A stretch of DNA of 59,697 bases from a virus. The notes beneath the pieces were generated by a model. It was given only the letters and a program-made list of their open reading frames with translations. It was not told where the DNA came from and searched no databases. The first letter of the stretch is position 1. Every line of letters starts with the position of its first letter. This document shows positions 13,827-32,012 of this stretch, in pieces. A program made the position numbers and the translations under genes. Where the stretch lies: positions 1 through 59,697 of the IMG/VR virus record IMGVR_UViG_3300030233_000116, one strand, 5' to 3'.

Positions 13827-16800
13827 TCAACGACGGCGAAGCAACATTTCACGCCGCGCCAATGCGCGACCCTGTTCAAATGCCTTCTTCACGCGCTCGA
13901 AGTCGTCTTCGGTTGGGTTGCGGGTGTTGAGAGAGTTCAGGACCGACCGGAGCCGGATCCCGGCATATTTGGCGGAAAGAGCGACCAATTCCTGGTATTC
14001 ATCGGCGTCGAGTTCGATCTGTTCGCCGTTGCGGCTGATCTTGTTGGATGGCCGGGGCGGAGCCCATGCCAGCGATGGGTTTTCGCGGTTCCAATTGCGC
14101 AACATAACGTCGACCTGTTCGCTTCCTTCCATTTCCCTGGTCCAGGGGATCAGGAGTCGGGAAGCCGCATTGCCATCCTTGCGCACCGGCTCGCCGGTCA
14201 CCTGATCGATGCGCGGGGCCGCAAACTGCGGGATCGGCAGCATGTCGTAATAGACCTGAGCGGTGCGATAATCGCGCTGGAATTCATCCATGTTCCGCAA
14301 GGGTTGCCGGATGATATTCGGCACCAGGCCGGAGAGGAAAGAGGAGCGGAAACGCGATGCCGCAAAGTCCGCGCGGTCCGGATCGCTGAAGTTCTGAATG
14401 GTCTCCATCAGCCCGCCAATGCCGGCCGTGAAGGTCTTATCCTGCGTCTGGCCGACCATGTAAGAGAAAAACTGACTGGTTTTCTCCTGCGAGCCGCCAC
14501 CGCTCTTCGTCATGCGTGCAGCGTCGACGACCGTGCCAAGGATGGTGGCGAACGGTTCCAACCGCCCGTAGGAAACCGTCACGCCGTTGCGCCCGCCGAT
14601 CCGGATCGAGTAGGGGCCGCCCGAGGTGCGCGCCTGCATGTCGGCAAGCGCTGAATTGCTCGGGCGACTGCCCGAAATCAGGATGAGCTTGTTATCATCA
14701 TCCTCATCACCCTCGGCCATCCCGAGCAACATCAAGGTGCCGACCCAGGCGATCGTCTGTTCCGCCATATCTCGCACAAGCTGCGGGTGCGAGGTGAGGA
14801 CCGGTTTGCCATCGCGGAATTTGAAGAACCCGGCCTGCAACAATCGATAGGTCATCGGGATGCTTCCCAGCGGAGTCTTCCGAATGCCGGTGGCGAAGAT
14901 ATTGTATGGGGTGCGCACGAACGGAATGATGAAGGAAAGGATCTTGGCTTTCCTCCTGAGATCCTGAGCGTTGCGAGCCAACTGCTCCATCACGTTTCCG
15001 CCTTCGTCGGCATTTTTCAGTGGCGTCTGGAATGTCATATCGACCGCTTTGTCGACCGCGTATTGCCACGACATCGAGCCCGGCGTGTTCACTTCGTCAG
15101 CGATGAACTCCTCGAGCTTCTTGCCTTCGAGCCCCTTCTGTTTCCCGATCCGGAATGCCATAGCGCCCGTCTCCATGCGTCCGATGGTGAATTTGAACAG
15201 GGAATCCATGAAGAGGAGGAGTCGGCCGGGGATGCGAACAATACGCCCGGTGCGCCCCTTGATGGCCGGCTGCACCCCGCCCGCCTTATCGAAATCTTCG
15301 AACAGCTCGACCTGGCCGCCGAGCACTTCGGACTCGAAGAAATCGGACTCGGCATCCCACGCCTTCACCGCCATCTTCCAACCCTTCGCGAGCCCCGGCC
15401 TCAGTCCGGCCAGCAGGTGCTTGAACTCCCCGAACTGCGCGCCCTTCTGGTCTTTCACCATCAAGTTCATAACGGCTTCCATGCCGCGCTGAACCGTCAT
15501 ATCCCAAGCGGTGTTCGCGAAGTTGCCGGCAATATTCACGATGTGGGTCTGCGGCCCCGAGAGAATCCCGTTGATCCAATACTCGATCGCCATGTCGAAC
15601 GGATTGCCGCTGGCAGCCTGCGCGGTCCGGGCGACCCGAACGACCTGTTGCGCGTCGTCGATCGGAAAGCGGACCATAATTTCGCGGTTCTCGTATTCAA
15701 GCGGGAGCTTCTGCTGAGGGCCGGCTTCGGGCGCCGCCGGAGCGTCAGACCGCGGCATGCGCGTCCGGTTGCGGGCGGCCTGATCTTCGTTGAGTTCGAG
15801 TCGAGTTTGATCCTCGGGATATGCGCCGGGTGTCGGACCGACTGGCGCATCACTGACCGGCGTTTGCGGGACTTGAAGCAATGGACGGCGCTTCGGGACG
15901 CGACGTCGGACGGTTTTCCGTTTGCCTTGCTCTGTCTTCGGGGCAATTCCCATGGCTTCGAGGACTTGCGCCATTGCCGCATCAACATCCGCGTCGGAAA
16001 CCTCCCGGTTGCCCAAGGCTGCCGCCCCCAGCGCAACGCCGGTCTGGTCGATGTATTTGGCAACCTCTCCTGGCGATACTCCGCGCTCAAGGAGCTTGCG
16101 CACGGTGTCGCGATAACGAGTGTTCACAGCATCGGCATATCGATCCCGGACCGCCTCCACCTCCTTCGCTGTGGCCCCCATTTCCTTGCCGATGACCTCG
16201 AATGATTTCGCCCCGCCCTGCAACGCCCGGACGATCTTCGAGTCCTGCGAGGTGAACCCGGACAGAATGTTCTTCACGATGGCGGAGCCCTTGAGGATCA
16301 GTTCGACCTCGCCGCCGAAGATCATATCGAAGGTGATGCCCATGGCGTTGAGCGCCTTCTCGATGGCTTTGATCCGGGCGCTTTCGGCATCGAGGAGCCG
16401 CTGTTTTTCCGCTTGATCGGCTTTCTCGATCTGTTTCCGGACTTTCGATGGCGGGGTGAAGATGGCTTTAGCCAGAAACTCCCGATGTCGTTCCGCCGGG
16501 GACATGAAGGGATCTTTCCTCGAGGCCAGTTGACGACCCGCTTCCGTGCCGGTCTGCCGGTAAGCCCACACGAGGCCGGTCAGGATTCGCCGGCGCTCCG
16601 GGGTGAGCGGTTTACTCATCTCCTCGGCGACTACCACTTGGACGGCCTTCGTCTCCTCCGGGTTGAGCGTGCCGCCAGCCATGCCGCGCTCAAGAGCCAT
16701 TTCGATGACGCCGCCGGGATTCTCAGCAGCCATGCGCCGACCGGCTTCATTCCAGTCGGCTTCTTTCTCGCGAACGAGCTTGCTGCCATAAACCTCATCG

Positions 16801-19800
16801 ACCCCCATCACCTCCGGGCCAAGCGCGGAAAACCCGCGATCCGGGTTACCAACGGTCCGTTGGCCGGATGTTTCGCCCTTGGCCTTTTCGACCATGGCAT
16901 TGACTTCCGGCTCGGAGATGGCCGCCATGATGCGTTCAAGGGCTTTATCGCCTTCAGGCGTGAGGGTGCGGGCGTAGAGAATCGAATCGCTCTGCGGGTT
17001 GAAGCGCTGGCTCAGTGGAATGACGTTGCCTTTGTCGTCGTAGGTTACAGGGTCGGCGGATTTTACCGCATTGGGGTCTGTGATACCGATCTCATGGCCG
17101 ACCTGTTCGGTTCCATAGGCGAGGTTAAACTTAAATGTTTGGTAGTCATCTTGCAAAGAAGCAAAATCCTGACCCAACAACATTTTGAGTAACTGACCAT
17201 CCACGGACCCCGCGTATCGTTCGATAGTCTCTCTGGTAATGGGGAGCCCCATGATCGTGCGGTTAGTCAGCCAACGAATGTCTTCCTCGGTTAAATTGGT
17301 TTGATCAAATACCTTTCCGGGCCGAATCCACGCATCAATGACTTGTGGCGTAGAACCTCTTTCAATTCTGGTCTGCGTCACAGGATCATAGAGCGCCAGC
17401 GTATCGTTAAAATCCTTCGGTTTACCCCGATACCGTTGTAAAAACCGCTCCGCTCCTTCTCTTGTGTCAGCAAACCAAACAACTCCCTTTTCTGCGTCAT
17501 CGGAAAGGAGGTTGAGGTTGAAGCGCTTAAATCCGCCGTTCAAAGTGCCGTGGTAGCCTTTGATTGTGTAACCAGCCGCTCGCGCCGCCTCATCCACCAT
17601 CCGCTGTGCGGTCTCCATGTCGCCACGCTCGACCGCTGCGAGATACTCGGCGTCCTCATCTGTGATGGTGCGGGTGCCAATCCAGTGCTTTTCGATGTAA
17701 TCATCGACAGCATTGTCGATGCTCTTGGGCGTGTATTTCGCACGCATCTCGATCACCTTGTCAATTTCCCTGTTTTGCTGCCTGATGTTATCGATGCTCT
17801 CAAAGTCAGTGTTCGGCTCGTAAAGCTCCTGATCCTCTTTTGAGAGCGCGTTGTATTCATCCAGCTCCTCTTGCATCATCTCGATGTCAGATTCGTTTTC
17901 ACGCTGGATTTTTCGAAGCTCCTTCAAGGAGTAATTATCAGGATGCAGAAGCTCGATGACGTCGTCGCCGGATCCCGTGTCGCCTTCGGCAACAGCCAGA
18001 ATTTCATCCTGAATAGCTTTTGGGCTGGCCTCGATCTTGCGGGTAGCGAGCGGAGTTCGATCATGCTCGATTTCCAACCCCTCTTCAATAGCCGCATCTT
18101 TCAATGCCTTGAGTTGAGTGCGGTTGGGAGCGCCTTGGTAATAAACCGTTTTGCCGTCCTTATAATCTTTCGCAATGCGAACGTATCCCAACGCCCCAGG
18201 ATTGCCCAAAATCAACCCATAACCATCACTGAAAAAGTGATGATGCTCACCCGTATCGACAAACCTTCCATCTGGAGACTGCCAGCCGGCAACCAATTTC
18301 CCTATGCCAACAGTCGGCTTCATTGCCTCAAAGCGTTCCCGAAAAACCTCTTTATTCTTCGCGGCTGTTGCAGCGTCGAAAGCGCCGTATTGCGGGGAGA
18401 TCGACCGGCTCCCAATCGCAAGCGTATCGGCTTCAGAAAAACCGCCATCACGAAGGCCGCGCAAAAATTCACCCTTTAGCCTCTTGTCCTCGGCTTCCAT
18501 TCTTTCTTCCGGTCGTGTCATAACCTCCGCCGCAAGAGCCTGCAGGTTTTTGCGCGCTGACTTCAAATCACCATAGAAAGCCTCATACATCCGCATTACT
18601 TGGGCGCGAACCTCATTCCAGGCTTTCGTCTGGTCTGCATTGAGGTTGCTGTCGGGTTGATTTTCTTCGATCTCAGTAAGACTGAGCCCGCCAACCTCGG
18701 CGAATTCTTTACTATCAAGCGCTTTTTCGACTTGTTTCCAAATGGCGTGCCCTTGAGTGGATTTAGGCCAGTCGTCAGGATCTTGAATGTCAGAATCCAA
18801 AATGCGCTTTATTGAGCGATACCGGCTTTTCTGATCTTTGGAGAGATTGGCGTTTTCAATCAGCGCCGCCATTGCTCCAAACATGGATTTGCCCTCCATC
18901 GCCGCCTCTATCTCCATTTCAATAGAGCGGGCGCCAAGCGCACCGGAGATAGGTGCCACCTCATCCGCCAACGCCCGCAAATCCTCCAAAGCTGACCGCC
19001 GTTTCCCCTCCCATTCCCGTTCCGACGCCCGAATTTCCTCCAAGGCTGCTTCACGCACGCGCTCCCGTTCTTCCCCGCTGAGATCATCAATCGTCGTCTC
19101 GGGATTCGCCCATTCCGGCCAGGCGTCCGGCACGTCGTCGACGTATTGCCGCCAGTCGAGTTCGGGCAGCGGACGGGCATCCATCGATGCCTCATCGCCC
19201 AGTCGATCATTGATAGCAAAAGCGCGGCGCCGGCTGTCGCCCTGCAAATCCTCAATCTCGCCGATTCGCCGCCACAAAACATCTTCGGTTTCCTGCGAAA
19301 GTTCTGGGGAAATCGCTCGAGCACCCAATGCGGCCCGAGCATCAATTCCTTGGCCTTCCAGGCGGGATCGGAGCACGCCCAATGCATTGCTCAGGATCTT
19401 CGAAACGTACTGCGGGGAAACCTCCAGTTCGCGCGCGGTCTCCGCTGCGGTCTTACCGGAAAGCAGATTCTCCACCATGGCGCGCGGTCGGTCCGGAAGT
19501 TTCTGGACAGCAGCCCGGAGAATCCCGCGGATGTCCCCTTGAGCGGCCGTCTCGCGAACGTTCTCATCCTCGCCGATGACTTCCGCCAGGGTTTCGCCGT
19601 CATCAGTGATCGGTTCGTCCAGACTGGCGGACATCCGCGGACGTCGGGATTGCCTGCGGTATTCGGAATTGAGAGCGTTGGAGATGGTCCGATTTGCATA
19701 GGCCGCAAACGGGCCGGACTCGGGGTTGTAACCTTCCGCCGCTTTCACCAACGCCAGGCGAGCGCTTTGAAGAATGTCGTCATATTCACCGAGGTTGCGG

Positions 19801-22800
19801 TAACGGTTCGCCCACCAGCCAGCCAGCCTGAGGTTGTCAGTAACGAGGTTTTGCACCTCTGCCGTACGATCGGAAAGGTCGAGGGTGAGTTGGTCGGGAT
19901 CGATTGTGCGCGCCCCCATCGCTTGCTCTTCTGCCCCCGCTGTTTCCTCCGGCCCCTGAAGATCGCGTTCCAACTGTAAAAACTCTGCCTGCTTGGCCGC
20001 GTATTCCTCTTCCTTCGGCCATTGCTGTTCGGATGCTTGTTGCAGAGGTGTGATTTGCTCTTGCTGCTTCTCAATGCGCGCACGAATCGAATTCACCTTT
20101 GCCTCGCCAGCACGCGCAGAACGCACGACTGAGTTGAGCAACCCTTCAGCCGTTTTAGGGGACCCATTATCCCACATCTCACCCGATGGCGTCTTGATTT
20201 CAGCCTCAAAAGTCACTCGCAACTCCTCAAACGATGCCAAGGCGCCGCGAGCAACCAGGGTGACAGGCACCTCATTTATGCGAAAGCTGATCTCTGCGGT
20301 ATTGTCTGCATTTGCAATCTGGACCGCCTTTTTGCGAAGCTGGTCCATGATATTGCCAAGCGCCTCGACGGCTTCCTTTCGATCCGTGAATACACCGTTT
20401 TCGCCGAAATCGTAAGTAACCGAGTCGCCCTCGAACTGAGCCGACATCTTATCCGAAATGGCTTCATACTGTTTCGCCAGCGCCGTATCCGAGCGGATAG
20501 AGGATTCCAAGTACCATAACCTTTTGCGAGACTCCGCAACCTCATTCAAAAATCCGCGCCGTTCGCCATCCAGCTCGGCGATCTCGCCTTCCAGGTCTGC
20601 CAAGCGCAAAACCCTGGTATCGCCGGAAAGCTGGGCGACCTGCTGGCGCATATTCATCACCACCTCGGACGCCGCATCGTCAAACTCGCGGCCTGAGACG
20701 TTGCCCTTCAATACCTGATGCACGAACGCCTGTTTGGCGGCCATCATATCGTAGATGGCAACGTCCATCGTGCTCTCCACGCCATAACGGATGTTGCGAA
20801 CCGCGAAATCGCTATCGTAATCCGGATTCGCCGAACCATCCTTCAGCTTGGCGCGCGTGAAGATATTCCCCTGCCGGATGATTCGACCATCGCGTTGCTC
20901 AAGCATGGCTGGCGTCATTGAGCGCGGCGGATCAAGATGATGTGCCGCCACCAACCGCTCCTGCATGTTCACTCCGACCCCGAGCTTTTCCGTGGATCCA
21001 AGTATCACCCGGACTTCGCCGCTGTTCACCTTCTCAAACAATGCTTCCCGGCGTTTGTCAGTATTGTGCTCGTGGATGATGGCGATTTGGTTTTCCGGGA
21101 TTCCTCGCTTGATGAGCTTGTCCCGAATGTCGCGATATAGATTGAATCCGCCGCCTGAAAATTCGGCATCCTCATCTGGACCTTCTTTTTCCTGCTTGTC
21201 GGGGTCGGTCTCACCGTCGGCTTCTTCCTCAATCGAAAGCGAGCCGCCAACAAAGGCATCAAGCGTATTAGTGTTGATCGGCCGAAACCGATCCAAGAAC
21301 ACGACCTGCGCGCCCCTCCGATATTCGTTCTCCTGATGAATCTTCGCAATTTCCTCAACCGCGCGATTAACCTTCGACCCTGGTTCATCCAGAGCATCCT
21401 GCCGCACGAGCCGCGGATCTACAGACGCCGCCATCCCAACCTGCATCGTTACGATTGGGACCGCGCGGGCAGCCTCTTTCTCATCGCTGCTACCGCTCTT
21501 CATCACCCGCTCAAACTCCGCGCCAATCTCCATGATCCAATCATTAATGCGGGACACCGCGGGAGTCTGGGGAACGACCTGTAAATCCGGCAGGTTGCGA
21601 CCATCAGAATTTCGCATCTTGGGAACCTTCAGCCCAAGTTCTTCATTCCCCATCTTCACGTCGAATCCTGAGCGGATCATGGCGACCAACTCGGCGCCGT
21701 TGGTGAATCGATTAAAGCGACTCACACGCTTCCATGCGCCCGACCAAGTGCGCTCCAGCTTCGTGTTTAATCGTCCGAAGGTGTGAGCAAATTCATCGAA
21801 AGTGTTAATACCAAAATCTTCCAGCACCGATGGCGTGGCCAGTTTCAACATGATGTATGCTTCGGCCACACTATTGGTAATCGGGGTCCCGGTGGCCAGG
21901 ATCACATTGCGCCCATTGTTGCGGTCCTGAATGTATTTCGTCTTCATCTCCAGACCCATCGCGCGTTGGCTTTCGTCGTTCGGAATGCCCTTGATGCGCT
22001 GCATGTTGGTGATGATCGACGCCTTCTTGTAAGCGTGCGCCTCATCAATGAAAAGGGCGTCTACGCCGGTCGATTCAAAGTCGATCACGTCATCCCCTCG
22101 CTTTTCGAGACCGTCCATCATCCGGCGAAGCTTGCCTTCCATCCGCTTTTTCGCCTTTTGCAACTGCTTGGTGGTCGGCGAATCTTTCCCCTCACTCAAG
22201 CGCATGCGATTGATGGCCTCGCTCAATTCCGCAAGCTTATCGCTGAAAAAGCGCCGAATGGTTTCCTTCGATGGCAAAATCCGATCGAACTGCGGTTGCG
22301 TGACGATCACCATGTCGTAATCGCCCGTGGCAATCTGCGAGATAAACCGAGCGCGACTCTTGGCGTTGAACGTTTTTTCCGTGGCGACCAAAACCTTTGC
22401 TGCCGGGTAAGCCTGCATGACGGATGCCGCAAACTGGCCGATGGTCGCCTTTTGCACCACGATCATTGGCTTTCGCGCCAAGCCGAGCCGCTTCATTTCC
22501 ATCGCTGCGACGATTTGCGAGAATGTTTTGCCAGAACCAACCCCATGCGCCATGACCGCCTTACCCTCCTGCAAAATTCGGGCAATCGCGGATCGGCGAT
22601 GCCCATTCATCCAGACGACATTAGAAAGCCCTGGAATATTGTGGCGCGATTGATCGCCGTCCCTCACCAGATAGTCGCCACTGTAAACAGGGGCGACCAC
22701 GCTGTTCATGACGTCGTTATATTCCTGCTCGACCACTTCTTGCACGGACACCCCCTCGACCTGAACGGCAGTGGTCTTGATCCAACTTTCGAAACGCCGC

Positions 22801-25800
22801 TCCATGTCGGCCATCTTCGCTTTCGCGGCCTGCGTGGCAGGAAAATCCGTCTCTGTCTTCGTTTTGCCGCCGCCAAGACTGACAGTGGTCGTGATTTGTG
22901 GCGAAGTGCCCTTCAACGCATGGGTGAGAAGTTCCGCCCCGCTCAGTTTTCCGCTTTTCCAATCGACGGAATTTCCGCTGGCTAGCGGATTGCTCACAGT
23001 CACAACGTGCGTGTTGGCAGCCGCCACGTAGGAAACCTTAGTTTTGGAGCCGAGGAGATCGGTTGCAAACGCGGAAAGGACGCGCTCAGGAATCCAGCGT
23101 GACGCCAGGGAAAAGTAAATATCCTTTAATGGGACCGTCGGAGGAATCACCCCCTCCAACGCAGCAATATTCGCCCGGTATCGAGAATCTGTTTCCGCCG
23201 CCGCACGAGCGGCCCGAAGACGTTTGCGAACATTTGAACTGAGGTATCGCTCGGCGATTTCCAAACGTCCCGTTGCGGGATCGAGATAGGCGCGCCCGGT
23301 TTCGACAATGCGGTCTTCCGCTTCGCGTTTCGAAATTCCCAGCATATTGGCCACGGAATCAGCATCGACTGATCCCTCAAAGGCCATCAAGATGTTGATG
23401 GCATCGTTGATATTCTCCGCTTTCTCCGGCTTCGAGACCGGTTCCCGGACTCGTTTCGAGAAAATATCCGCCTTGCGCCACGCTTTTTTGACCTTCTTCG
23501 TTCGCTGGTCATAGCGGTCAAACTCTTCTTCGAGCGATTGAAGCAGCGGATATTCCGGATCGTCCTCGAGGAATGCCGCTTTTTCGAGGTGCCGATATTT
23601 CTTTGTAAGGGTGCCGTTGCGCGCGATGAAGCGGTCATAAGCCGCGTTGAGCCGTCGACGCATGGCGTCTAAATCGGCGATGGAAATATCCTGATCGACT
23701 TCACCCGCGATCAGCTCGCGGGCCGCGTCCCGAACCATCATCCAATCATCGGCAATCACCTCCCGATCGCGCCGTTCCTTGTCGGTGATTGGCTCGGTAT
23801 GTTTGTCGCCGTAGTTCTTTTGCGTCAGCCAACTCGCTGGCTCCAATCGACCTTCAACGACTTGAAAAAACTGGCCATCCTTTTGGACGTAACTTCCAGG
23901 CTTGTCGCCGGACGCCGCAACCTGGCTTCGCTGCACCGGCCGGGCGTCGCCTCGCTTAAAAATGTCTTTCGGGAATCGCTCGACGACCGCCGTCAACTCT
24001 GCCCCCGTGTCCTGCCCCGGCTTTGCCACCAAGGCATAATCGCCAGCGGAATACATGGTGCCTTCGAGGGAGTGGCGCCCAAGCGCCATCTCCGGGTTGG
24101 CCGCATAGTATTCGTTGACGAAAATGTCCGCCATCTGCCCTTCGACCTCGGCCTCCCCGACTTTATCCCGGCTGATCCACGAAGCGCCCTCAAACGGTTT
24201 TCCGTCTTTCTTGCGCATCACGATAATGTCCGTGGTGACTTCTGTGCCTGCATTGGCCGCAAATGCGTTGTTTGGCAGCCGGACGGCCCCCACGAGATCG
24301 GCTTTTTCCGCCAGCAACCGACGCACCTTAGCATCGCTCTTGTCCATCGTGCCGTCAGAGGTGATGAAGATCACCAACCCCCCAGGTCGCGTCATGTCCA
24401 GGCCGCGGGCAAAAAAGTAGTCGTGAATGAGCAAGTCGGGGTAATCCTTCGCACCTGGCACCCGGTAGTCACCAAAAGGCACATTTGAAACCACAAGATC
24501 CATGGAAGCCGGAGGGATCGCCGCCCGCTCAAACCCAGTGACTTGAACCTCGGCTTGCGGGTAGAGCTTCGCAAAGATGCGGCCCGAAAGGTTGTCCAGC
24601 TCAACACCAGTCAATGCGCTTTGCTCGGCGATAGACTCAGGCATGCGCCCGAAGAAATGACCGACACCACCGGCCGGTTCAAGCACATCACCCCCACGGA
24701 AGCCCAACCGCTCCGCAATCGACCAGACACCATCAATGACGCGCGGATCGGTGAAGTGCGCGTTGAGTGTGGACGCCGCTGCAGACTCGTATTCTTCCTC
24801 CGAAAGCAATTCGCGAAGCCGAGCGTTCTGCTTTGCGTAGGCAGGTTTTTTCTCGTTGAAATACTCTCCAGCCCACCCCCATCCGGTGTATCTGGCAAGA
24901 ATGTCCTTTTCCGCTGGCCCCGGATTACGATTCTCGGATTCCAAGCGCCGAAGCAATTCGATTGCCTCAATATTGGCGTCGAGCTTGGCCGCATTGCCTC
25001 GAGGTGCAATTTGCACCCCGGCAGGAATCCGGTGATTACGATCGGCTGGCTTTAACTCAGCCGATCGGTCGGGTCTTCCGGTTCCTTGAGGCGGCGCTGA
25101 ATCTCCTCGCTCGCCATCTTTCTCAACTCCTTCTCGCTGGCCGCCGGGAATTGTGTTCGGAAGAACTCTACCAGTTTTTGCATTGGCGTTTTGTCCTTCT
25201 TCATTTGATTTGATATTACTCTCTGCTGTTGCAAAAGTAAACAGATCCTCTTGGACTGCCGCGGGAGCCTTGCGCAACTCCTGCTTGATTTTGGCCCGAA
25301 CCTTTGGCTTCGAAGCCTTTACTGCGGGTGGAAGTGTCTCCACCCAGTCGAACATGTCGGGCGTATTCGGATCTAGCCGCCGGGCGCCAAGGCTCTGAAC
25401 TTGGCCCGTGCCTCGGCTTCGACTTCCGCCGCGCGGGGATTCTGGTTTCCGAACCGCAGTTTCCCGATCGCCCGCTCGACCGCCGCTTCCTCGGCCGGGT
25501 CGATTTTCGGGGGTTCCCAATAATTCCCTTGGCTTTTCTGGTTGTTTGGCTCGCTCATCTACCAGATTATACGTCGCGCGGTCTTTAACATCAACCGATT
25601 CCCCGTCCTTTTGCGCAACCAATTTGGGGCCTTCGGTATTGTCGTAGAGCGCGCCTGTATCAGCCAATGCCAACAGGTTTTTGGCTCCGGCATTAAAGCT
25701 GGAATGCGCGGTGAAAAGCGCCTCATACGGCACCCATCGCCCCTTGCCTTTTGCTCGCAAAACAGCTCGCGTGATGGATTCGGCGGGATCAATCGTGACC

Positions 25801-28800
25801 CCTAGGAACTCAACGGCAAACCCGGCATTCTGCCACTGCTTGATCTTGCTGGCGGACTTTTCAAAGTTCGCCATCGTGCCATCGAAGATGATGTTATATC
25901 GCTCCCGGCGATTCTTATCGACCAATTTCAGTTCGAGCTTTTTCGCAATCCAACTCGATTCTTCATGCACCACGGCGGCCGCCCGGCTGTCTCCGGCTTG
26001 CACGATACGGTCATACTCCGGAATCAACTCCTTGATCTCATCGGCATTGATCTCGACTGGCTGTTGCTTAAATGGAGTCTTGCCCGCTTTGATGCGCGCC
26101 TTGAGCGTAGTGGTTTTCCCAGCGCCACCCCCGCCACCCATGGCCAGAACAACAGGCTTTTGCCCTTCCGGCACCGGCTTCCCACGGCTGATGAAATATT
26201 GGATGACGGCCTCGCGGAATTCATTCCGACTCACTTTTCCCTCGGGAAGCAGACCGGCAGCAACCAAGGGATGCTCGGCATCAACTTCAGCCTCATTGAG
26301 ATCCAAGGTCTCCTGCAACAGGGGGGCGCCGTCCTGCAGCGTGCGCGGCGGAACAGGCAACCCATTTTCAAACTCCCATCCTTCAGACTCGGGAAACGCC
26401 TCGCGGATCCGTGGATCCACAGGACCGGCCAATCGCCGGGTGGCCAGCGTGTGAACAGCCCTCGTGAACAACGCACCAGCATATTGCGAATCTTCCACCA
26501 CCGACCGGAGCAACCCTTCCAGCGCCCTCACCCCATTAACAGACCCCAAAGCCCGTCCGATCCGCTCGACCATCTCAGGCACCTCGCCCTCGAACAAATC
26601 TTGCTGGCCGATGAACTCCTGGAAGGAACCCTTCCCGCCGTCCCGCTTCCATCGCACATATTGCGACACCGCAGGAGCAATCGCCGAATCGATGAAGTCA
26701 GGTTGCGTCTCTCGGATTTGCGCCAGCAGTCCGGATTGGCGAACGAGTCCCTTCGTGAAATTCACCAGCCCGGAATCCTGCGCGTCCTCGATCAGTTGCG
26801 TGAGCGTGATCCCGCGCCCGGCCTGGCGACCTTCCGCGGTATCAGCACCGAGCACATAGGCGAGCATCGCCCGCCGGACATCCTCGTAAAGGTCCGGTGT
26901 GGCCGATCCGTCCCGGGTAAGCCGGTTGCGCAGACCCATGGAGTCAATCACCTCCAGAATCGCTTCCCCGCTCGGACCGTCCTCGAGGAAATTGCCGTCC
27001 TCATCGAACTCGATGGCTGCCAGCACGCCGGGATTCTGCCGGAGCACCCCGGCCCGCTTGATGGCCTCTTCCGGCCGGCTCATCTCATCGGGATTCGCAT
27101 CCCGAACATAGGCCAGCAGTGGATCGGGCTCGGATGCGTAATCGCCGAAATCGACGATTTCAGCGCCCAAAGCCGGCATTTCCATCGCTTCAGCCTGTTG
27201 CGCGGCATCCTCCATGCCGAGGTGTCGGAGGTATCGAGCCACGAACGAGCGCTGCGCGCTCCGGGCCGCAGGCGTGCCGGCCGCACCGTAGATGACGCCC
27301 AACGCCGCCTCGCGACCGTGCCCGGACCGAATGACATCCTTCCCGCCCTCCGAAGTGACCACGATCGGGCCATGCTCGATGCTGGTGGCCGGTATTGATT
27401 TCTCAGGCTTCCACCGCTGGGCGAGATCGAGAATTTGCGCCCGGGATTGCACTCGGTCGCGTTCGCGGGGTTGGTATTTAGTCCCCTTGGAATTTTTGAC
27501 GGTCGCCAGGTCGATCGGCTTCAAGCGAAGCTTCACCTTCTTCGTCCTCGCACTGTTCTCGCTCCAATAGGTGCCGTCCTTTGCCACAGTCCCGAGCGGC
27601 TGGAACGCGGGGGCGGAATCTTCCGCGCCCCGCTGTTCGCTTACTTCCGTTTCCCGCCGCATCCCTTCTTTTTGTGACCTTTGCCTTTCATTGGACTCAC
27701 CTCCTTTCTGAGTGGTGGCAGGATCGGGATTCGAACCCGAGTCTTCAGGGTATGGGCCTGACGTGGTGACCTCTCCACCATCCTGCGTCAAAATTTCTTC
27801 CATCCGGGCGATCATCGCCTGGATCTCCGGCACATCCCCCGCAGCCCGGAGCGATGCAATCACGCTCTCGATCCATCGGTTGATCGCCTCGATGATCCGG
27901 CGGAACCCGGTCTCAGTGATCTCGCCGTCGGCACGCGCCTGCACCAACTGCCGCTTGAACTCGCCCAAAAGGTTCTCAAGCGGCATGCGAACATTGTTCA
28001 CCTGGAGATCGCCCCTGGCCGCCATGTCGAGAAGCGCAAGCGCTTTCTCCTGCATGGTCTCACCGGGAATCGCCTCGATCGCGGCATCAATGTCGGCCTG
28101 CAATCGGTCGCCAGCGAAGTAACTTGCCGCCGAATTGACCAATGCACGTGACACTTTCGCGCCATTGGCACCATTGATGGCCTGCCGGATGCCGCCCGAC
28201 TCTTTTGCACGCTTCCCGGCAACGAAATCCTCAAACGAGCCTTCCCGCCCGCCGCTTTCCCATTCCTCGCGAAAAGCAACCTGTTCGGCCGCATGAGCGA
28301 TCTCCTCGCTCACCACACCCTCGAACCACTGGTCTGCGGCATCCTCACCCAATGCCTGAGCCACAATCCCGCGTTGCCGATCGATTTGCCCCTCATCGAC
28401 ATGAATCCGGGGGCCGTCCTCTCCAAAGGCCACGCCCATGGCATTGCCTGCACCGCCAGGAACGGGCCCCTCGACGACCTGAACGCCCGCGCTCAGTCGA
28501 TTCCGAGAATTGATGTCGGCAACCGCTTCTGTAACGCGCGATAGTCGGCCAGCAGGCGTTCGAATGTCGGCTCCGGATCGCCCTCGGCGAAAGGTCGCGG
28601 TCCCATCGGTAGCCGATCCAGCAGCGACGGATCCCGAATCCGCTCGAGATCCTGGATCCGATTGCGAAGCTCCTGCACCGCTTGCCACCGATCCGGGTGC
28701 GCTCGCAGCTTCTCCGCGCTCATTTGACTGACTTCCATCAGCATCACCATACGCATCTTCCGCCATCCGGTAAACCCCGCGGACCATTCCGATATTCTGC

Positions 28801-31800
28801 CGGGTGACCTGCTGGCGTGCGGTCTCCTCGTCCTTTGCGCGGACCTGCACCGGCTCGCGTCCGTCGACATCGACCTCGAACAGCGCCAGATTTTCCGATC
28901 CTGGCGCTGGGGGAGGGGAATCAACTTCCGTTGATGCTTCTTCAACGAAAGTTGATGGGTCGGGCCGCAAAGGAATCCGAAGCGCCTTCTCGCGCGCTTC
29001 GCTCTCACTCATGCGAATGAGGCGACCGGAAGCTGGAGCGATCTCGCGCAACCGGTCGAGCTGGCCCTCGGTGAGAATCGTCATGCCCTCGACCACTTCC
29101 ATGCGCGGTGTGCCATCGGGTAATGGCGCCGATACCGCCGCGCGCTCCCGGGCATCCAGTCGCTCCAATGGAGTGCCGGCAAGAATCTTCAGTGCCCCCC
29201 TGGCCGCCAATCGATCGGCCTCGGCCTGCGCGGGGTCCATCTCAGGTGGTGGCGCCCATTTTGCCGCTTGGGCGTTGGCAGCCGCCACGAATTCGGGTGG
29301 CGCCGAGGATACCGGACGACCACCCTTTGCTTGAATCTGCTGGTCCAAAGCAACCGCCGCGCCATCCAAGCGAGCCAGTGTTGCATCCTCCATCCCGCGT
29401 TCCGCGGCCTGCTCCTGCATCCGGGAGATTTCCGATCGTTTCGCCATCAAGGCATCGACCGAATCGTCTGGAGCGATTCGCATGGACTCAATTCGACCGC
29501 GAAGGCTTTGATTCTGGTAGCCTTCGACGCCACCCTGCGCCCCTCCGACAACGCCCCCAGCCAAACCACCCAAGGCAGCGGATTGCGCCAACCGCTCCCA
29601 CGCCCCCTCGAACGCCGCCGCCTGATCTCGGAATCCGGCCTCCAGAAGCATGGAAGTTAATTCCTGACCCATTTCCGGCAACGCTTCGCTCCCGGCCCCC
29701 AAGGAAGCACGTCGCACGAACTGCGAAAGCACTCCGCGCCCACCAGGATTGCGCGTCAAAAATTGACCACCCGGAATTTTGTCCATCGCCCCGCCAATGA
29801 CCCCCATCAGCACGCCCTCGGATGTCGCCAAAGCCTTGGCCTCCAATTCCGACGCACCCGCTTCCCGGTGGTATTCCATGGCGTCATTGTATTGGTTGCC
29901 GGCCATCTTCGAGCCGGTCAACGCCATGAAGGTGACCGGAGCGGCCGGGCCGGTCAGTGACGCCAAGCCAAGGTCGATTCCCATCTCGATCATGACCGGA
30001 GCACCCTCAGCCAACAACCAACGAGTCAGGCGACCCGCATCCCAGGAATCGGCATCGGTAAGCTTGAAATTCTGCAATTCCGCGCTGGCTTGATTCCCGG
30101 CCTGCAGGTCGTTCGCCATCTGGCGCACCGCCTGATTCTGCGCCTCCGCTGATGTCCGCCCAAAAATGATGCGTTCGCCGAAATTTTGCGCCCATTGCCC
30201 GGGGTTCAAATTCGACGCCATCTCATTGGCGCCAGCCACACCGCTGGCAATCCGAGGCAGCATCCGGCCAAACACGGAGCGATCCACTTCCTCCCACAGT
30301 CCAATGTTCTCGTTTTTCTCCCGCCATTTCTGAAGCTTGCCATCCTTCCATGCCCGCTCCATCTCAAGGAATGTCTCGCGTTGCGCCTTCGGTAGCTGCC
30401 GCAGCACCTCCCGCCGCTCATCGCCTTTGAGTTCGTAATTCAGGAGTCGTGCCCGGTCCTGCAGCCCCGAGAACTCCTCATTCACCTCCGCCTGGCGTTG
30501 CTCGATCTCTTTCTGCAGCGCCGACTGAGCAGCCATGCGCGCCTCAAGATCCTCGATCGCCTCGATCTCCGCCATGCGCGCCTCAGCATCCGCATCAATC
30601 GCGTCCAGCTTCTCCGCAATCGGTCGGGTCGCCTCATTACCCCGCAACTCCTCCCGAGCCTGCTTCGCCCGCTCTTCGGCCAGGCGTCGACTTTCTTCCG
30701 CTACGGCATTTGCCTGAGCCTGCCCCTGGTCAAACGCCGCCGCGCGTTCCCGTAATGCCTCGACCTCAGCATTGTGGTTCGCCCGCTCCTCCGCGGTCAT
30801 CCCCTGTGTGGCCCGCTCGGCCAATCGCGCGGCCTCGGCCTCGATGGCTTCCACCTCGGCGACCGTCTGTTGCGCGTTCTCGACCTGGCGCTGACTCTGC
30901 TCCTCTGGAGATTCCTCCAATCGAGCCTGAGCCTGCTCCGCGATCCGCCGTCGCATATACCCGCCGGGCCCCTCCTTCTCCAGAGCAAGCAACTCCTGCT
31001 CGAGCCGGTAATCTTCTTCTTCCAACGCCCGTCGCGCTTCATCCCCTGCAAATCGCGCATCGATCTCTTCCAGCCGCGCCTTGCGGATCCTCTCATCCTC
31101 CTGCCATGCAGCCATGGCCGCCGCGTCTTCCTGCGGCTTCGAACCACCGAACAATCCGCGTTTCGGCTCAGGCTTAGGCTTCGGGGTCGCCCAATTTTCC
31201 CGCTCCATGGTCAGCTCTTCGCGTTCCTGGTCAGAAAGCACCTTCGGAGCGTCGGGTGCGCCTTTCGCCACCCTAATCTCCTTACGCCGCATCTCGCGAT
31301 CCCGCTTCTCGCGTGCATGCAGGAACTTCGCGCTCGCAATCCGACGCTGCGGATTGCCGGAGGTCAATGCGACTTCCGGATCAATGACTTCCCATTCCGA
31401 ATTCTTGTTCTGTTTATAAAGATTGCGGTCGTTCGGGTCGTTCGGGTTCGGCCCAATCTTCGCGTTGCGATCGGGATCCACCCGTTTCACATCACCGGTG
31501 GCCGTGCGATCCATCCGGAACGCCCCTTTTTCGTCCCATTTCAGTTCACCCTTGCGCTCTTCGTACAAAGGATTCCCCTCGACATCCCGCTCGATCAGGA
31601 TGTTCCCCAAAGCATCTTTCCGATACCGCACCCCTTGTTCCTGTAGCCCGGCCTCGTGTTGCGCCTTCTCAAGCTTCGCGCGCTCCGCTTCGTATCGCTG
31701 GGATTCCCGCTGAAATTGCTCCTGTTGCCGCTGGACGCCTTCGTTGATGTCCTGCTTGGCCTCCATGAAGCGTCCGGCATCCTGCTGGATGGCCTGCAGC

Positions 31801-32012
31801 CGATCTTTCCGGTTTCGAGCCGTCAGAAGCCCGGATTGCATCATGACAGCCCGATTTGCCTCGGACTGCTGCTGTTCCCGCACCTGATTCCAATCCGGTT
31901 CCGCCGGGCGTTCCGGCATCTCAATGTCGGCAACGAAATCCCGCGGCTCTTCAGGAGCAGGGGAAACCGGCACGCCTTGCGCCGGGCGCACCCCGTGTGC
32001 TTGGCGCTTCAT
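13827..32012 (-). CDS. giant polyvalent protein (6061 aa): coiled coil, ParB-like, zeta-like, methylase, SNF2, sigma70, ART, C-terminal LPD38-like
   Basis: One uninterrupted frame. About residues 1-560: charged coiled coils. About 660-830: Gly/Ala-rich hydrophobic stretches (VMIEMGIDLGLASLTG, GGLAGGVVGGAQGG), as in injected virion proteins. Near 1237: EEIAHAAEQV, perhaps a degenerate zincin. About 1470-1870: DdrB/ParB-like (IRSGHGREAALGVIY). About 1925-2130: zeta-toxin kinase (GGGGGAGKTTT). About 2400-2600: N6-adenine methylase (LEPAGGVGHF, NVPFG). About 3150-3720: SNF2 helicase (GVGSGKT, DEAHAYKK, EQRDGRIIRQG). About 4055-4230: sigma70 regions 2 and 4. About 4780-5015: ADP-ribosyltransferase-like (YHGTLNGGF). 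About 5480-6061: LPD38-like (NGILSGPQTHIVNIAGN). This is the polyvalent-protein architecture described for phages and conjugative elements, thought to be injected with DNA. The gene lies between terminase and portal, fitting a virion protein. GAR-type motifs recur at domain borders. The start at 32012 overlaps the preceding stop (ATGA). A tRNA and micro-ORF lie inside residues 1408-1460. Confidence 0.9.
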   Translation of the reverse strand: MKRQAHGVRPAQGVPVSPAPEEPRDFVADIEMPERPAEPDWNQVREQQQSEANRAVMMQSGLLTARNRKDRLQAIQQDAGRFMEAKQDINEGVQRQQEQFQRESQRYEAERAKLEKAQHEAGLQEQGVRYRKDALGNILIERDVEGNPLYEERKGELKWDEKGAFRMDRTATGDVKRVDPDRNAKIGPNPNDPNDRNLYKQNKNSEWEVIDPEVALTSGNPQRRIASAKFLHAREKRDREMRRKEIRVAKGAPDAPKVLSDQEREELTMERENWATPKPKPEPKRGLFGGSKPQEDAAAMAAWQEDERIRKARLEEIDARFAGDEARRALEEEDYRLEQELLALEKEGPGGYMRRRIAEQAQARLEESPEEQSQRQVENAQQTVAEVEAIEAEAARLAERATQGMTAEERANHNAEVEALRERAAAFDQGQAQANAVAEESRRLAEERAKQAREELRGNEATRPIAEKLDAIDADAEARMAEIEAIEDLEARMAAQSALQKEIEQRQAEVNEEFSGLQDRARLLNYELKGDERREVLRQLPKAQRETFLEMERAWKDGKLQKWREKNENIGLWEEVDRSVFGRMLPRIASGVAGANEMASNLNPGQWAQNFGERIIFGRTSAEAQNQAVRQMANDLQAGNQASAELQNFKLTDADSWDAGRLTRWLLAEGAPVMIEMGIDLGLASLTGPAAPVTFMALTGSKMAGNQYNDAMEYHREAGASELEAKALATSEGVLMGVIGGAMDKIPGGQFLTRNPGGRGVLSQFVRRASLGAGSEALPEMGQELTSMLLEAGFRDQAAAFEGAWERLAQSAALGGLAGGVVGGAQGGVEGYQNQSLRGRIESMRIAPDDSVDALMAKRSEISRMQEQAAERGMEDATLARLDGAAVALDQQIQAKGGRPVSSAPPEFVAAANAQAAKWAPPPEMDPAQAEADRLAARGALKILAGTPLERLDARERAAVSAPLPDGTPRMEVVEGMTILTEGQLDRLREIAPASGRLIRMSESEAREKALRIPLRPDPSTFVEEASTEVDSPPPAPGSENLALFEVDVDGREPVQVRAKDEETARQQVTRQNIGMVRGVYRMAEDAYGDADGSQSNERGEAASAPGSVASGAGASQSDPGSRADSGSVAAGSATDGTATFRRGRSGADIRTPAGRLSRVTEAVADINSRNRLSAGVQVVEGPVPGGAGNAMGVAFGEDGPRIHVDEGQIDRQRGIVAQALGEDAADQWFEGVVSEEIAHAAEQVAFREEWESGGREGSFEDFVAGKRAKESGGIRQAINGANGAKVSRALVNSAASYFAGDRLQADIDAAIEAIPGETMQEKALALLDMAARGDLQVNNVRMPLENLLGEFKRQLVQARADGEITETGFRRIIEAINRWIESVIASLRAAGDVPEIQAMIARMEEILTQDGGEVTTSGPYPEDSGSNPDPATTQKGGESNERQRSQKEGMRRETEVSEQRGAEDSAPAFQPLGTVAKDGTYWSENSARTKKVKLRLKPIDLATVKNSKGTKYQPRERDRVQSRAQILDLAQRWKPEKSIPATSIEHGPIVVTSEGGKDVIRSGHGREAALGVIYGAAGTPAARSAQRSFVARYLRHLGMEDAAQQAEAMEMPALGAEIVDFGDYASEPDPLLAYVRDANPDEMSRPEEAIKRAGVLRQNPGVLAAIEFDEDGNFLEDGPSGEAILEVIDSMGLRNRLTRDGSATPDLYEDVRRAMLAYVLGADTAEGRQAGRGITLTQLIEDAQDSGLVNFTKGLVRQSGLLAQIRETQPDFIDSAIAPAVSQYVRWKRDGGKGSFQEFIGQQDLFEGEVPEMVERIGRALGSVNGVRALEGLLRSVVEDSQYAGALFTRAVHTLATRRLAGPVDPRIREAFPESEGWEFENGLPVPPRTLQDGAPLLQETLDLNEAEVDAEHPLVAAGLLPEGKVSRNEFREAVIQYFISRGKPVPEGQKPVVLAMGGGGGAGKTTTLKARIKAGKTPFKQQPVEINADEIKELIPEYDRIVQAGDSRAAAVVHEESSWIAKKLELKLVDKNRRERYNIIFDGTMANFEKSASKIKQWQNAGFAVEFLGVTIDPAESITRAVLRAKGKGRWVPYEALFTAHSSFNAGAKNLLALADTGALYDNTEGPKLVAQKDGESVDVKDRATYNLVDERAKQPEKPRELLGTPENRPGRGSGGRAGDRETAVRKPESPRGGSRSRGTGQVQSLGARRLDPNTPDMFDWVETLPPAVKASKPKVRAKIKQELRKAPAAVQEDLFTFATAESNIKSNEEGQNANAKTGRVLPNTIPGGQREGVEKDGERGDSAPPQGTGRPDRSAELKPADRNHRIPAGVQIAPRGNAAKLDANIEAIELLRRLESENRNPGPAEKDILARYTGWGWAGEYFNEKKPAYAKQNARLRELLSEEEYESAAASTLNAHFTDPRVIDGVWSIAERLGFRGGDVLEPAGGVGHFFGRMPESIAEQSALTGVELDNLSGRIFAKLYPQAEVQVTGFERAAIPPASMDLVVSNVPFGDYRVPGAKDYPDLLIHDYFFARGLDMTRPGGLVIFITSDGTMDKSDAKVRRLLAEKADLVGAVRLPNNAFAANAGTEVTTDIIVMRKKDGKPFEGASWISRDKVGEAEVEGQMADIFVNEYYAANPEMALGRHSLEGTMYSAGDYALVAKPGQDTGAELTAVVERFPKDIFKRGDARPVQRSQVAASGDKPGSYVQKDGQFFQVVEGRLEPASWLTQKNYGDKHTEPITDKERRDREVIADDWMMVRDAARELIAGEVDQDISIADLDAMRRRLNAAYDRFIARNGTLTKKYRHLEKAAFLEDDPEYPLLQSLEEEFDRYDQRTKKVKKAWRKADIFSKRVREPVSKPEKAENINDAINILMAFEGSVDADSVANMLGISKREAEDRIVETGRAYLDPATGRLEIAERYLSSNVRKRLRAARAAAETDSRYRANIAALEGVIPPTVPLKDIYFSLASRWIPERVLSAFATDLLGSKTKVSYVAAANTHVVTVSNPLASGNSVDWKSGKLSGAELLTHALKGTSPQITTTVSLGGGKTKTETDFPATQAAKAKMADMERRFESWIKTTAVQVEGVSVQEVVEQEYNDVMNSVVAPVYSGDYLVRDGDQSRHNIPGLSNVVWMNGHRRSAIARILQEGKAVMAHGVGSGKTFSQIVAAMEMKRLGLARKPMIVVQKATIGQFAASVMQAYPAAKVLVATEKTFNAKSRARFISQIATGDYDMVIVTQPQFDRILPSKETIRRFFSDKLAELSEAINRMRLSEGKDSPTTKQLQKAKKRMEGKLRRMMDGLEKRGDDVIDFESTGVDALFIDEAHAYKKASIITNMQRIKGIPNDESQRAMGLEMKTKYIQDRNNGRNVILATGTPITNSVAEAYIMLKLATPSVLEDFGINTFDEFAHTFGRLNTKLERTWSGAWKRVSRFNRFTNGAELVAMIRSGFDVKMGNEELGLKVPKMRNSDGRNLPDLQVVPQTPAVSRINDWIMEIGAEFERVMKSGSSDEKEAARAVPIVTMQVGMAASVDPRLVRQDALDEPGSKVNRAVEEIAKIHQENEYRRGAQVVFLDRFRPINTNTLDAFVGGSLSIEEEADGETDPDKQEKEGPDEDAEFSGGGFNLYRDIRDKLIKRGIPENQIAIIHEHNTDKRREALFEKVNSGEVRVILGSTEKLGVGVNMQERLVAAHHLDPPRSMTPAMLEQRDGRIIRQGNIFTRAKLKDGSANPDYDSDFAVRNIRYGVESTMDVAIYDMMAAKQAFVHQVLKGNVSGREFDDAASEVVMNMRQQVAQLSGDTRVLRLADLEGEIAELDGERRGFLNEVAESRKRLWYLESSIRSDTALAKQYEAISDKMSAQFEGDSVTYDFGENGVFTDRKEAVEALGNIMDQLRKKAVQIANADNTAEISFRINEVPVTLVARGALASFEELRVTFEAEIKTPSGEMWDNGSPKTAEGLLNSVVRSARAGEAKVNSIRARIEKQQEQITPLQQASEQQWPKEEEYAAKQAEFLQLERDLQGPEETAGAEEQAMGARTIDPDQLTLDLSDRTAEVQNLVTDNLRLAGWWANRYRNLGEYDDILQSARLALVKAAEGYNPESGPFAAYANRTISNALNSEYRRQSRRPRMSASLDEPITDDGETLAEVIGEDENVRETAAQGDIRGILRAAVQKLPDRPRAMVENLLSGKTAAETARELEVSPQYVSKILSNALGVLRSRLEGQGIDARAALGARAISPELSQETEDVLWRRIGEIEDLQGDSRRRAFAINDRLGDEASMDARPLPELDWRQYVDDVPDAWPEWANPETTIDDLSGEERERVREAALEEIRASEREWEGKRRSALEDLRALADEVAPISGALGARSIEMEIEAAMEGKSMFGAMAALIENANLSKDQKSRYRSIKRILDSDIQDPDDWPKSTQGHAIWKQVEKALDSKEFAEVGGLSLTEIEENQPDSNLNADQTKAWNEVRAQVMRMYEAFYGDLKSARKNLQALAAEVMTRPEERMEAEDKRLKGEFLRGLRDGGFSEADTLAIGSRSISPQYGAFDAATAAKNKEVFRERFEAMKPTVGIGKLVAGWQSPDGRFVDTGEHHHFFSDGYGLILGNPGALGYVRIAKDYKDGKTVYYQGAPNRTQLKALKDAAIEEGLEIEHDRTPLATRKIEASPKAIQDEILAVAEGDTGSGDDVIELLHPDNYSLKELRKIQRENESDIEMMQEELDEYNALSKEDQELYEPNTDFESIDNIRQQNREIDKVIEMRAKYTPKSIDNAVDDYIEKHWIGTRTITDEDAEYLAAVERGDMETAQRMVDEAARAAGYTIKGYHGTLNGGFKRFNLNLLSDDAEKGVVWFADTREGAERFLQRYRGKPKDFNDTLALYDPVTQTRIERGSTPQVIDAWIRPGKVFDQTNLTEEDIRWLTNRTIMGLPITRETIERYAGSVDGQLLKMLLGQDFASLQDDYQTFKFNLAYGTEQVGHEIGITDPNAVKSADPVTYDDKGNVIPLSQRFNPQSDSILYARTLTPEGDKALERIMAAISEPEVNAMVEKAKGETSGQRTVGNPDRGFSALGPEVMGVDEVYGSKLVREKEADWNEAGRRMAAENPGGVIEMALERGMAGGTLNPEETKAVQVVVAEEMSKPLTPERRRILTGLVWAYRQTGTEAGRQLASRKDPFMSPAERHREFLAKAIFTPPSKVRKQIEKADQAEKQRLLDAESARIKAIEKALNAMGITFDMIFGGEVELILKGSAIVKNILSGFTSQDSKIVRALQGGAKSFEVIGKEMGATAKEVEAVRDRYADAVNTRYRDTVRKLLERGVSPGEVAKYIDQTGVALGAAALGNREVSDADVDAAMAQVLEAMGIAPKTEQGKRKTVRRRVPKRRPLLQVPQTPVSDAPVGPTPGAYPEDQTRLELNEDQAARNRTRMPRSDAPAAPEAGPQQKLPLEYENREIMVRFPIDDAQQVVRVARTAQAASGNPFDMAIEYWINGILSGPQTHIVNIAGNFANTAWDMTVQRGMEAVMNLMVKDQKGAQFGEFKHLLAGLRPGLAKGWKMAVKAWDAESDFFESEVLGGQVELFEDFDKAGGVQPAIKGRTGRIVRIPGRLLLFMDSLFKFTIGRMETGAMAFRIGKQKGLEGKKLEEFIADEVNTPGSMSWQYAVDKAVDMTFQTPLKNADEGGNVMEQLARNAQDLRRKAKILSFIIPFVRTPYNIFATGIRKTPLGSIPMTYRLLQAGFFKFRDGKPVLTSHPQLVRDMAEQTIAWVGTLMLLGMAEGDEDDDNKLILISGSRPSNSALADMQARTSGGPYSIRIGGRNGVTVSYGRLEPFATILGTVVDAARMTKSGGGSQEKTSQFFSYMVGQTQDKTFTAGIGGLMETIQNFSDPDRADFAASRFRSSFLSGLVPNIIRQPLRNMDEFQRDYRTAQVYYDMLPIPQFAAPRIDQVTGEPVRKDGNAASRLLIPWTREMEGSEQVDVMLRNWNRENPSLAWAPPRPSNKISRNGEQIELDADEYQELVALSAKYAGIRLRSVLNSLNTRNPTEDDFERVKKAFEQGRALARREMLLRRR
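27607..27633 (-). other. strong hairpin just after nested micro-ORF
   Basis: Minus strand GCGGGG(C)GCGGA-AGAT-TCCGCCCCCGC makes an 11-bp stem with one bulged C, starting 7 bases after the micro-ORF stop. No U-tract follows, so it is not a standard intrinsic terminator; it could be an RNA-processing, pausing or stabilising element. Confidence 0.6.
27641..27691 (-). CDS. 16-residue lysine-rich micro-ORF nested in giant gene
   Basis: ATG 27691 to TAA 27641 encodes MKGKGHKKKGCGGKRK. It is in a different frame from the giant gene. A textbook ribosome site, AAAGGAGGTGA, lies at the right spacing before it and starts only a few bases after the tRNA CCA end. The peptide is strongly basic with one Cys, so it could bind nucleic acid or ribosomes; no family recognised. 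The quality of the ribosome site is the main evidence that it is translated. Confidence 0.55.
   Translation of the reverse strand: MKGKGHKKKGCGGKRK
27697..27709 (-). promoter_or_regulatory. perfect Shine-Dalgarno for nested micro-ORF
   Basis: Minus-strand AGAAAGGAGGTGA is complementary to the 16S 3' end over at least nine bases and sits eight bases from the ATG at 27691. It is among the strongest ribosome sites in the window, surprising inside another gene. It could also pause ribosomes translating the giant protein. Confidence 0.7.
27713..27787 (-). tRNA. tRNA with CAU anticodon, encoded CCA, inside giant gene
   Basis: 75 nt fold fully: acceptor CGCAGGA/TCCTGCC with pairs 2-7 formed and a C1·C72 mismatch, U8, D-stem GTGG/CCAC with GG in the loop, anticodon stem TCAGG/CCTGA with loop CCCATAC, 4-nt variable loop, T-stem TCGGG/CCCGA with loop TTCGAAT, then ACCA. 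An open first pair plus C1 is characteristic of initiator tRNA, so an fMet-like role is possible; tRNA-Ile2 or elongator Met are alternatives. Position 33 is C, not the near-universal U, which is odd and could impair decoding. It lies on the sense strand of the giant gene and is translated as codons 1409-1433. Confidence 0.85.

Follow-up and report, generated by a model that had tools for sequence, protein, structure and literature searches.

A tRNA(CAU) gene of mixed initiator type nested in a probable interdomain linker of a giant phage polyvalent gene

INTRODUCTION

How does a tRNA gene come to lie, in the sense orientation, inside the reading frame of a giant phage gene, and what might it do there? 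This question is raised by a virus record of 59,697 bases (hereafter "the window," i.e., the whole stretch of DNA that was analyzed), in which a tRNA, a Shine-Dalgarno site, a micro-ORF, and a hairpin form a cassette within a single ORF (Table 1). Our searches of open-access papers turned up neither a phage coding sequence with a tRNA gene embedded in its reading frame nor an initiator-type tRNA of a phage whose loop is altered where VapC cleaves. Here, we ask whether the cassette marks a former gene border or occupies a linker between protein domains, which kind of tRNA it encodes, and how its parts might act together.

Table 1. Positions of the cassette components and of the surrounding giant gene in the window
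Feature	Position	Strand	Description
Giant DarB-like polyvalent gene	13827..32012	-	Peptidase-like, ddrB-ParB, Zeta toxin, N6-MTase, SNF2 helicase, sigma70 region 2
Peptidase-like (EExxH) and helical segment	27788..28475	-	5' of the tRNA; aligned to G001_A as far as the tRNA edge
Interdomain linker of giant protein	27549..27784	-	Residues about 1410-1488; holds tRNA, Shine-Dalgarno, micro-ORF, and hairpin
Initiator-type tRNA(CAU)	27713..27787	-	75 nt; CCA encoded; C1:C72 mismatch; anticodon loop CCCATAC
Extended Shine-Dalgarno AGAAAGGAGGTGA	27697..27709	-	Strongest start context in the window
Micro-ORF MKGKGHKKKGCGGKRK	ATG 27691 to TAA 27641	-	16 codons; frame differs from that of the giant gene
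Hairpin	27603..27638	-	15 bp, small bulges; directly after the micro-ORF stop
ddrB-like ParB domain (PF18763)	27174..27548	-	E 5.1e-9; downstream of the cassette

RESULTS

A tRNA gene lies in frame within a polyvalent-protein gene

The ORF at 32012..13827 (minus strand) encodes 6061 aa without a stop, in agreement with a preliminary description of this DNA that had reported an uninterrupted 18-kb frame. Its product is kin to DarB-like antirestriction proteins from many phages. Matches to ddrB-like ParB, Zeta toxin, SNF2, Helicase_C, and sigma70 region 2 exceed the Pfam cut-offs, and the match to N6 methylase is weak. A phage late-gene protein thus combines a ddrB-like ParB domain with further effector domains, as is characteristic of polyvalent proteins. 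With the DarB-like and DdrB polyvalent proteins (Iyer et al. 2017, PMC5512222), the window protein shares the giant multidomain late-gene product, the ddrB-ParB domain, the helicase and methylase domains, and the adjoining structural genes, here terminase and portal on either side; it differs from them in having a sense-strand tRNA gene within an interdomain linker. The Zeta toxin kinase domain (window 26180-25677, minus strand; E 5.1e-32) is located between ParB and the methylase, and a relative of this region is present in an IMG/VR contig (L003). The sigma70 region 2 embedded in the same protein (19847-19641, minus strand; E 8.2e-10) may bring along its own promoter specificity.

The tRNA is the only one in the window. 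ARAGORN calls it as tRNA-Met(CAU) at 27787-27713 on the minus strand, and Rfam RF00005 matches it at 57.3 bits against a gathering score of 29 (E 8.9e-10 over the window), so that a chance match can be set aside and the foldable, CCA-bearing tRNA first noticed on the sense strand of the giant gene is borne out by both programs. All of the usual loop contacts are present, every stem is paired except at 1:72, and pair 4:69 is A-U in place of G-C, a compensating change. Read in the frame of the giant gene, the tRNA covers residues about 1409-1434.

That this frame stays open is only mildly unlikely and therefore no proof of selection, since 11% of shuffles of the 188-nt cassette stretch remain open in the giant frame and, of 24 tRNA genes sampled, 14 contain no stop when read in the corresponding frame. 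Across the cassette, the giant frame has a stronger codon signal than the other two frames, albeit a weak one that lies near the lower 5% of windows.

CAU tRNAs recur in a sparse clade of related phages

Searches with the portal and terminase led to a sparse clade whose members share 32-54% identity in terminase, portal, and capsid. It includes a 63-kb contig of Luteolibacter pohnpeiensis (Verrucomicrobiota; L019, G002:C172), two further contigs of 63 kb (G001) and 57 kb (G005), and a more distant contig (G108). All four carry giant genes, and the closest relatives found for the window's giant gene are at 36-39% identity. No tRNA was detected by ARAGORN or Rfam inside the giant genes of these four relatives, and, among the records compared, placement inside the giant gene appears to be peculiar to the window. 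Two relatives have CAU tRNAs elsewhere, upstream of the terminase in the Luteolibacter phage (G002) and between the terminase and the giant gene in G005, each with a GCAGG acceptor and a mismatched 1:72; a late-strand CAU tRNA is hence recurrent in the clade. From the kinship to the Luteolibacter phage, the window's host is presumably a member of Verrucomicrobiota.

Beyond this clade, terminase matches in phage records are distant only, the portal and the N-terminal part of the giant protein have no match in phage records, and the ParB region has none in phage, plasmid, and viral collections. The Luteolibacter contig G002:C172 also carries a tmRNA (L038:5444-5810, minus strand; 101 bits), the second tmRNA of that genome lying on contig C166, and has tRNA-Pro, Glu, and Gln directly 5' of the terminase, with a tRNA-Met upstream of the tmRNA.

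The same comparison bears on the integrity of the record. Repeated RNA genes can produce assembly misjoins, and the window is a single metagenomic contig, so that two phages might have been joined wrongly at the tRNA. We consider this hardly credible, given that the frame is identical on both sides of the tRNA, that the order of peptidase-like segment and ddrB-ParB domain is as in G001, and that the order of terminase, giant gene, portal, and capsid is common to the window, G002, and G005.

The cassette probably occupies a linker between two domains

The tRNA, ribosome site, ORF, and hairpin together resemble an intergenic gene start, and the preliminary description had proposed that they are a fossil intergenic region left by the fusion of two genes. 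We regard this origin as very unlikely, because both flanking domains are already joined in one ORF of G001 where no tRNA is present, and the break in the G001 giant gene is elsewhere. Specifically, in that ORF, the peptidase-like segment and the ddrB-ParB domain (PF18763, E 1.5e-21) are separated by a plain low-complexity linker of ~70 aa. The peptidase-like segment of the window aligns to that of G001 up to residue 1401 (E 0.001), with a core at 965-1096 (E 2e-8), and stops at the tRNA edge. The linker that follows in the window has about 80 residues, similar in length to that of G001, and most of them are what the tRNA, ribosome site, micro-ORF, and hairpin encode in the giant frame. A structure model of the junction shows helical structure as far as the tRNA edge and then coil, beginning at about residue 1410, although a mean pLDDT of 41 gives this picture weak support.

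The break in the G001 giant gene falls downstream of the place equivalent to the cassette, between ParB and the methylase/helicase. Looking for the cassette between two genes in relatives, as had been suggested, gave the opposite result in G001, namely domains joined by a plain linker. The G001 gene (L029, L030; 25874-3712, minus strand) is split into a 2687-aa part, which ends after ParB, and a 3482-aa helicase part, and three ORFs lie between the two, two of which are paralogues (36% identity). Around the cassette itself, we found no convincing target-site repeats. Altogether, the comparison suggests that the cassette is probably the occupant of an interdomain linker rather than a fossil intergenic region.

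An initiator-type tRNA with an altered anticodon loop

We compared CAU tRNAs in a structural alignment of 60 positions, using as reference the initiator from Luteolibacter, a bacterium that hosts one of the related phages. The window tRNA agrees with this initiator at 44 of 60 positions and with the two other CAU tRNAs of that genome at 25 and 29. Agreement with the initiator extends to 6/7 positions of the acceptor 5' strand and 10/10 of the anticodon stem, and the 1:72 mismatch is kept. The initiator features C1:C72 (mismatched), G2:C71, and C3:G70 are all present, whereas the D stem has U11:A24, which is elongator-like, in place of the purine 11 and pyrimidine 24 of initiators. Because of this pair, we term the tRNA initiator-type and not a proven initiator; as read from its sequence, its initiator identity is mixed.

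A further likeness was found to the tRNA-Met of Streptomyces phage Manuel (MG518519; L002:3992-4062, plus strand), which matches the window tRNA at 46/60 positions, hardly differs from it in the D arm, the anticodon stem, and the T loop, and has the 1:72 mismatch, suggesting a wider family of phage CAU tRNAs. The Manuel tRNA differs in that its loop is the normal CTCATAA and in that it is part of an intergenic cluster of 19 tRNAs.

The anticodon loop of the window tRNA departs from the usual CTCATAA at two positions, U33 being replaced by C and A38 by C. Among genomes of the phylum Verrucomicrobiota, the host-type arm TCRGGCTCATAACCYGA is present in 319/388, while the phage arm TCRGGCCCATACCCYGA is present in 0/388. 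The tRNA of the Luteolibacter phage has the normal CTCATAA loop, and the change is consequently not shared throughout the clade. In bacterial tRNAs, C33 is uncommon, and it could indicate a loss of function. However, it is the state found in vertebrate initiator tRNAs, and C33 need not abolish initiation. Neither the initiator kinship nor the loop changes had been recognized in the preliminary description.

These loop changes are also what a passive passenger might show, in which illegitimate recombination brought a tRNA and a downstream gene start into a linker tolerant of them, both being by now dispensable or decaying. The weaker-than-usual codon signal of the giant frame and the absence of a tRNA from the relatives G001 and G108 fit such an account. 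It is nevertheless unlikely in our view, as stems paired everywhere except 1:72, an intact CCA, and a compensated 4:69 pair speak against decay, and CAU tRNAs recur in the clade.

The strongest ribosome site of the window follows the tRNA

Most genes of the window phage have weak Shine-Dalgarno sites. The extended site AGAAAGGAGGTGA pairs with the 16S tail at -22.2 kcal/mol, ranking first among 5765 start-codon contexts on both strands (next, -19.5), and it begins 3 nt past the tRNA CCA. Earlier descriptions of this site as the best in the region, of the 16-codon ORF in another frame, and of a hairpin thus hold for the window; only the stem needs correction, from 11 bp to 15 bp with small bulges. 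The hairpin (-26.8 kcal/mol, z -5.0 versus shuffles) has no T run on its 3' side that would make it a U-tract terminator. Frameshifting at C AAA AAG, out of the micro-ORF and into the frame of the giant gene, was considered and dropped, the hairpin being too far downstream. Scanning the back-translated peptide in IMG/VR gave no homologue of the micro-ORF, and no Lys-rich micro-ORF with a ribosome site in the relatives resembles the window peptide; comparison thus lends no backing to a function for this peptide. A pattern combining the T-arm and the Shine-Dalgarno was found at four IMG/VR loci, the downstream ORFs of which are unrelated.

This arrangement could act as an mRNA switch. RNase P would split the giant mRNA into a stop-less upstream part (rescued and degraded), the tRNA, and a downstream message regulated via the micro-ORF. 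The sense orientation of the tRNA, the proximity of the window's strongest site to the CCA, and the hairpin after the micro-ORF stop are as such a switch would have it. Against it, the site serves no ORF other than the micro-ORF, for whose peptide no homologue was found; the next start in the giant frame (GTG 27587) is ~54 nt past the micro-ORF stop and behind the hairpin; and the giant genes of four relatives are without a tRNA. On this balance, we think a switch improbable.

DISCUSSION

The reading that we prefer, and to which we give roughly an even chance, is that the cassette contains a phage initiator-type tRNA housed in a linker, that RNase P excises this tRNA from the giant mRNA, and that its anticodon loop evades nucleases. 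According to this model, a tRNA(CAU) gene would have come to sit in the sense direction in the giant-gene linker, a place that should tolerate any stop-free hydrophilic sequence. The tRNA would be transcribed within the long late mRNA and freed by host RNase P and 3' trimming. No sigma70-type promoter was found near the tRNA, and its release is for this reason probably from the late mRNA.

Such release would destroy the giant mRNA, and each transcript molecule would therefore serve either as message for the giant protein or as a source of tRNA. Since a cut by RNase P leaves the upstream half without a stop codon, the outcome would not simply be a shorter protein, as the preliminary description had it. 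The downstream message would start close to the strongest ribosome site. Bacterial mRNA-tRNA mixed transcripts, which are processed by RNase P and RNase E, offer a parallel in that a tRNA is cut from a protein-coding transcript, but there the tRNA lies between genes and in the window it lies inside one reading frame.

The proposed benefit concerns the loop. According to a passage in PMC4105405, citing Winther and Gerdes 2011, VapC cleaves tRNAfMet between A38 and C39. Compared with the tRNA of the host, itself presumed, the window loop is changed at this cleavage position, and seven PIN-domain matches were found in the Luteolibacter genome. The C33 and C38 loop might thereby sustain initiation while VapC-like nucleases cleave the host initiator after position 38. 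Anticodon-loop changes at nuclease sites are frequent in phage tRNAs and have been proposed as a means of nuclease escape (van den Berg et al. 2023 hypothesis, PMC10264068). The window tRNA shares with these tRNAs the loop changes at a known nuclease cleavage position and is unlike them in being initiator-type (a VapC target), single, and nested in a coding sequence, with evasion as its putative role.

A bolder and quite speculative extension, which we hold to be doubtful, would tie these elements together. In it, excision of a nested, VapC-resistant initiator tRNA by RNase P would trade the giant message for initiation capacity and load ribosomes on the strong site at the new 5' end, so that host attack on initiation would be coupled to a late-gene switch.

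Judged from sequence comparison, the cassette is real and unusual, and the placement of an RNA gene in a linker explains it better than a fusion fossil, all of the functional steps given above being inferred. If the preferred reading is true, the tRNA would directly counteract an activity of VapC that is well described, and it would follow that RNA genes can be accommodated in the interdomain linkers of giant proteins.
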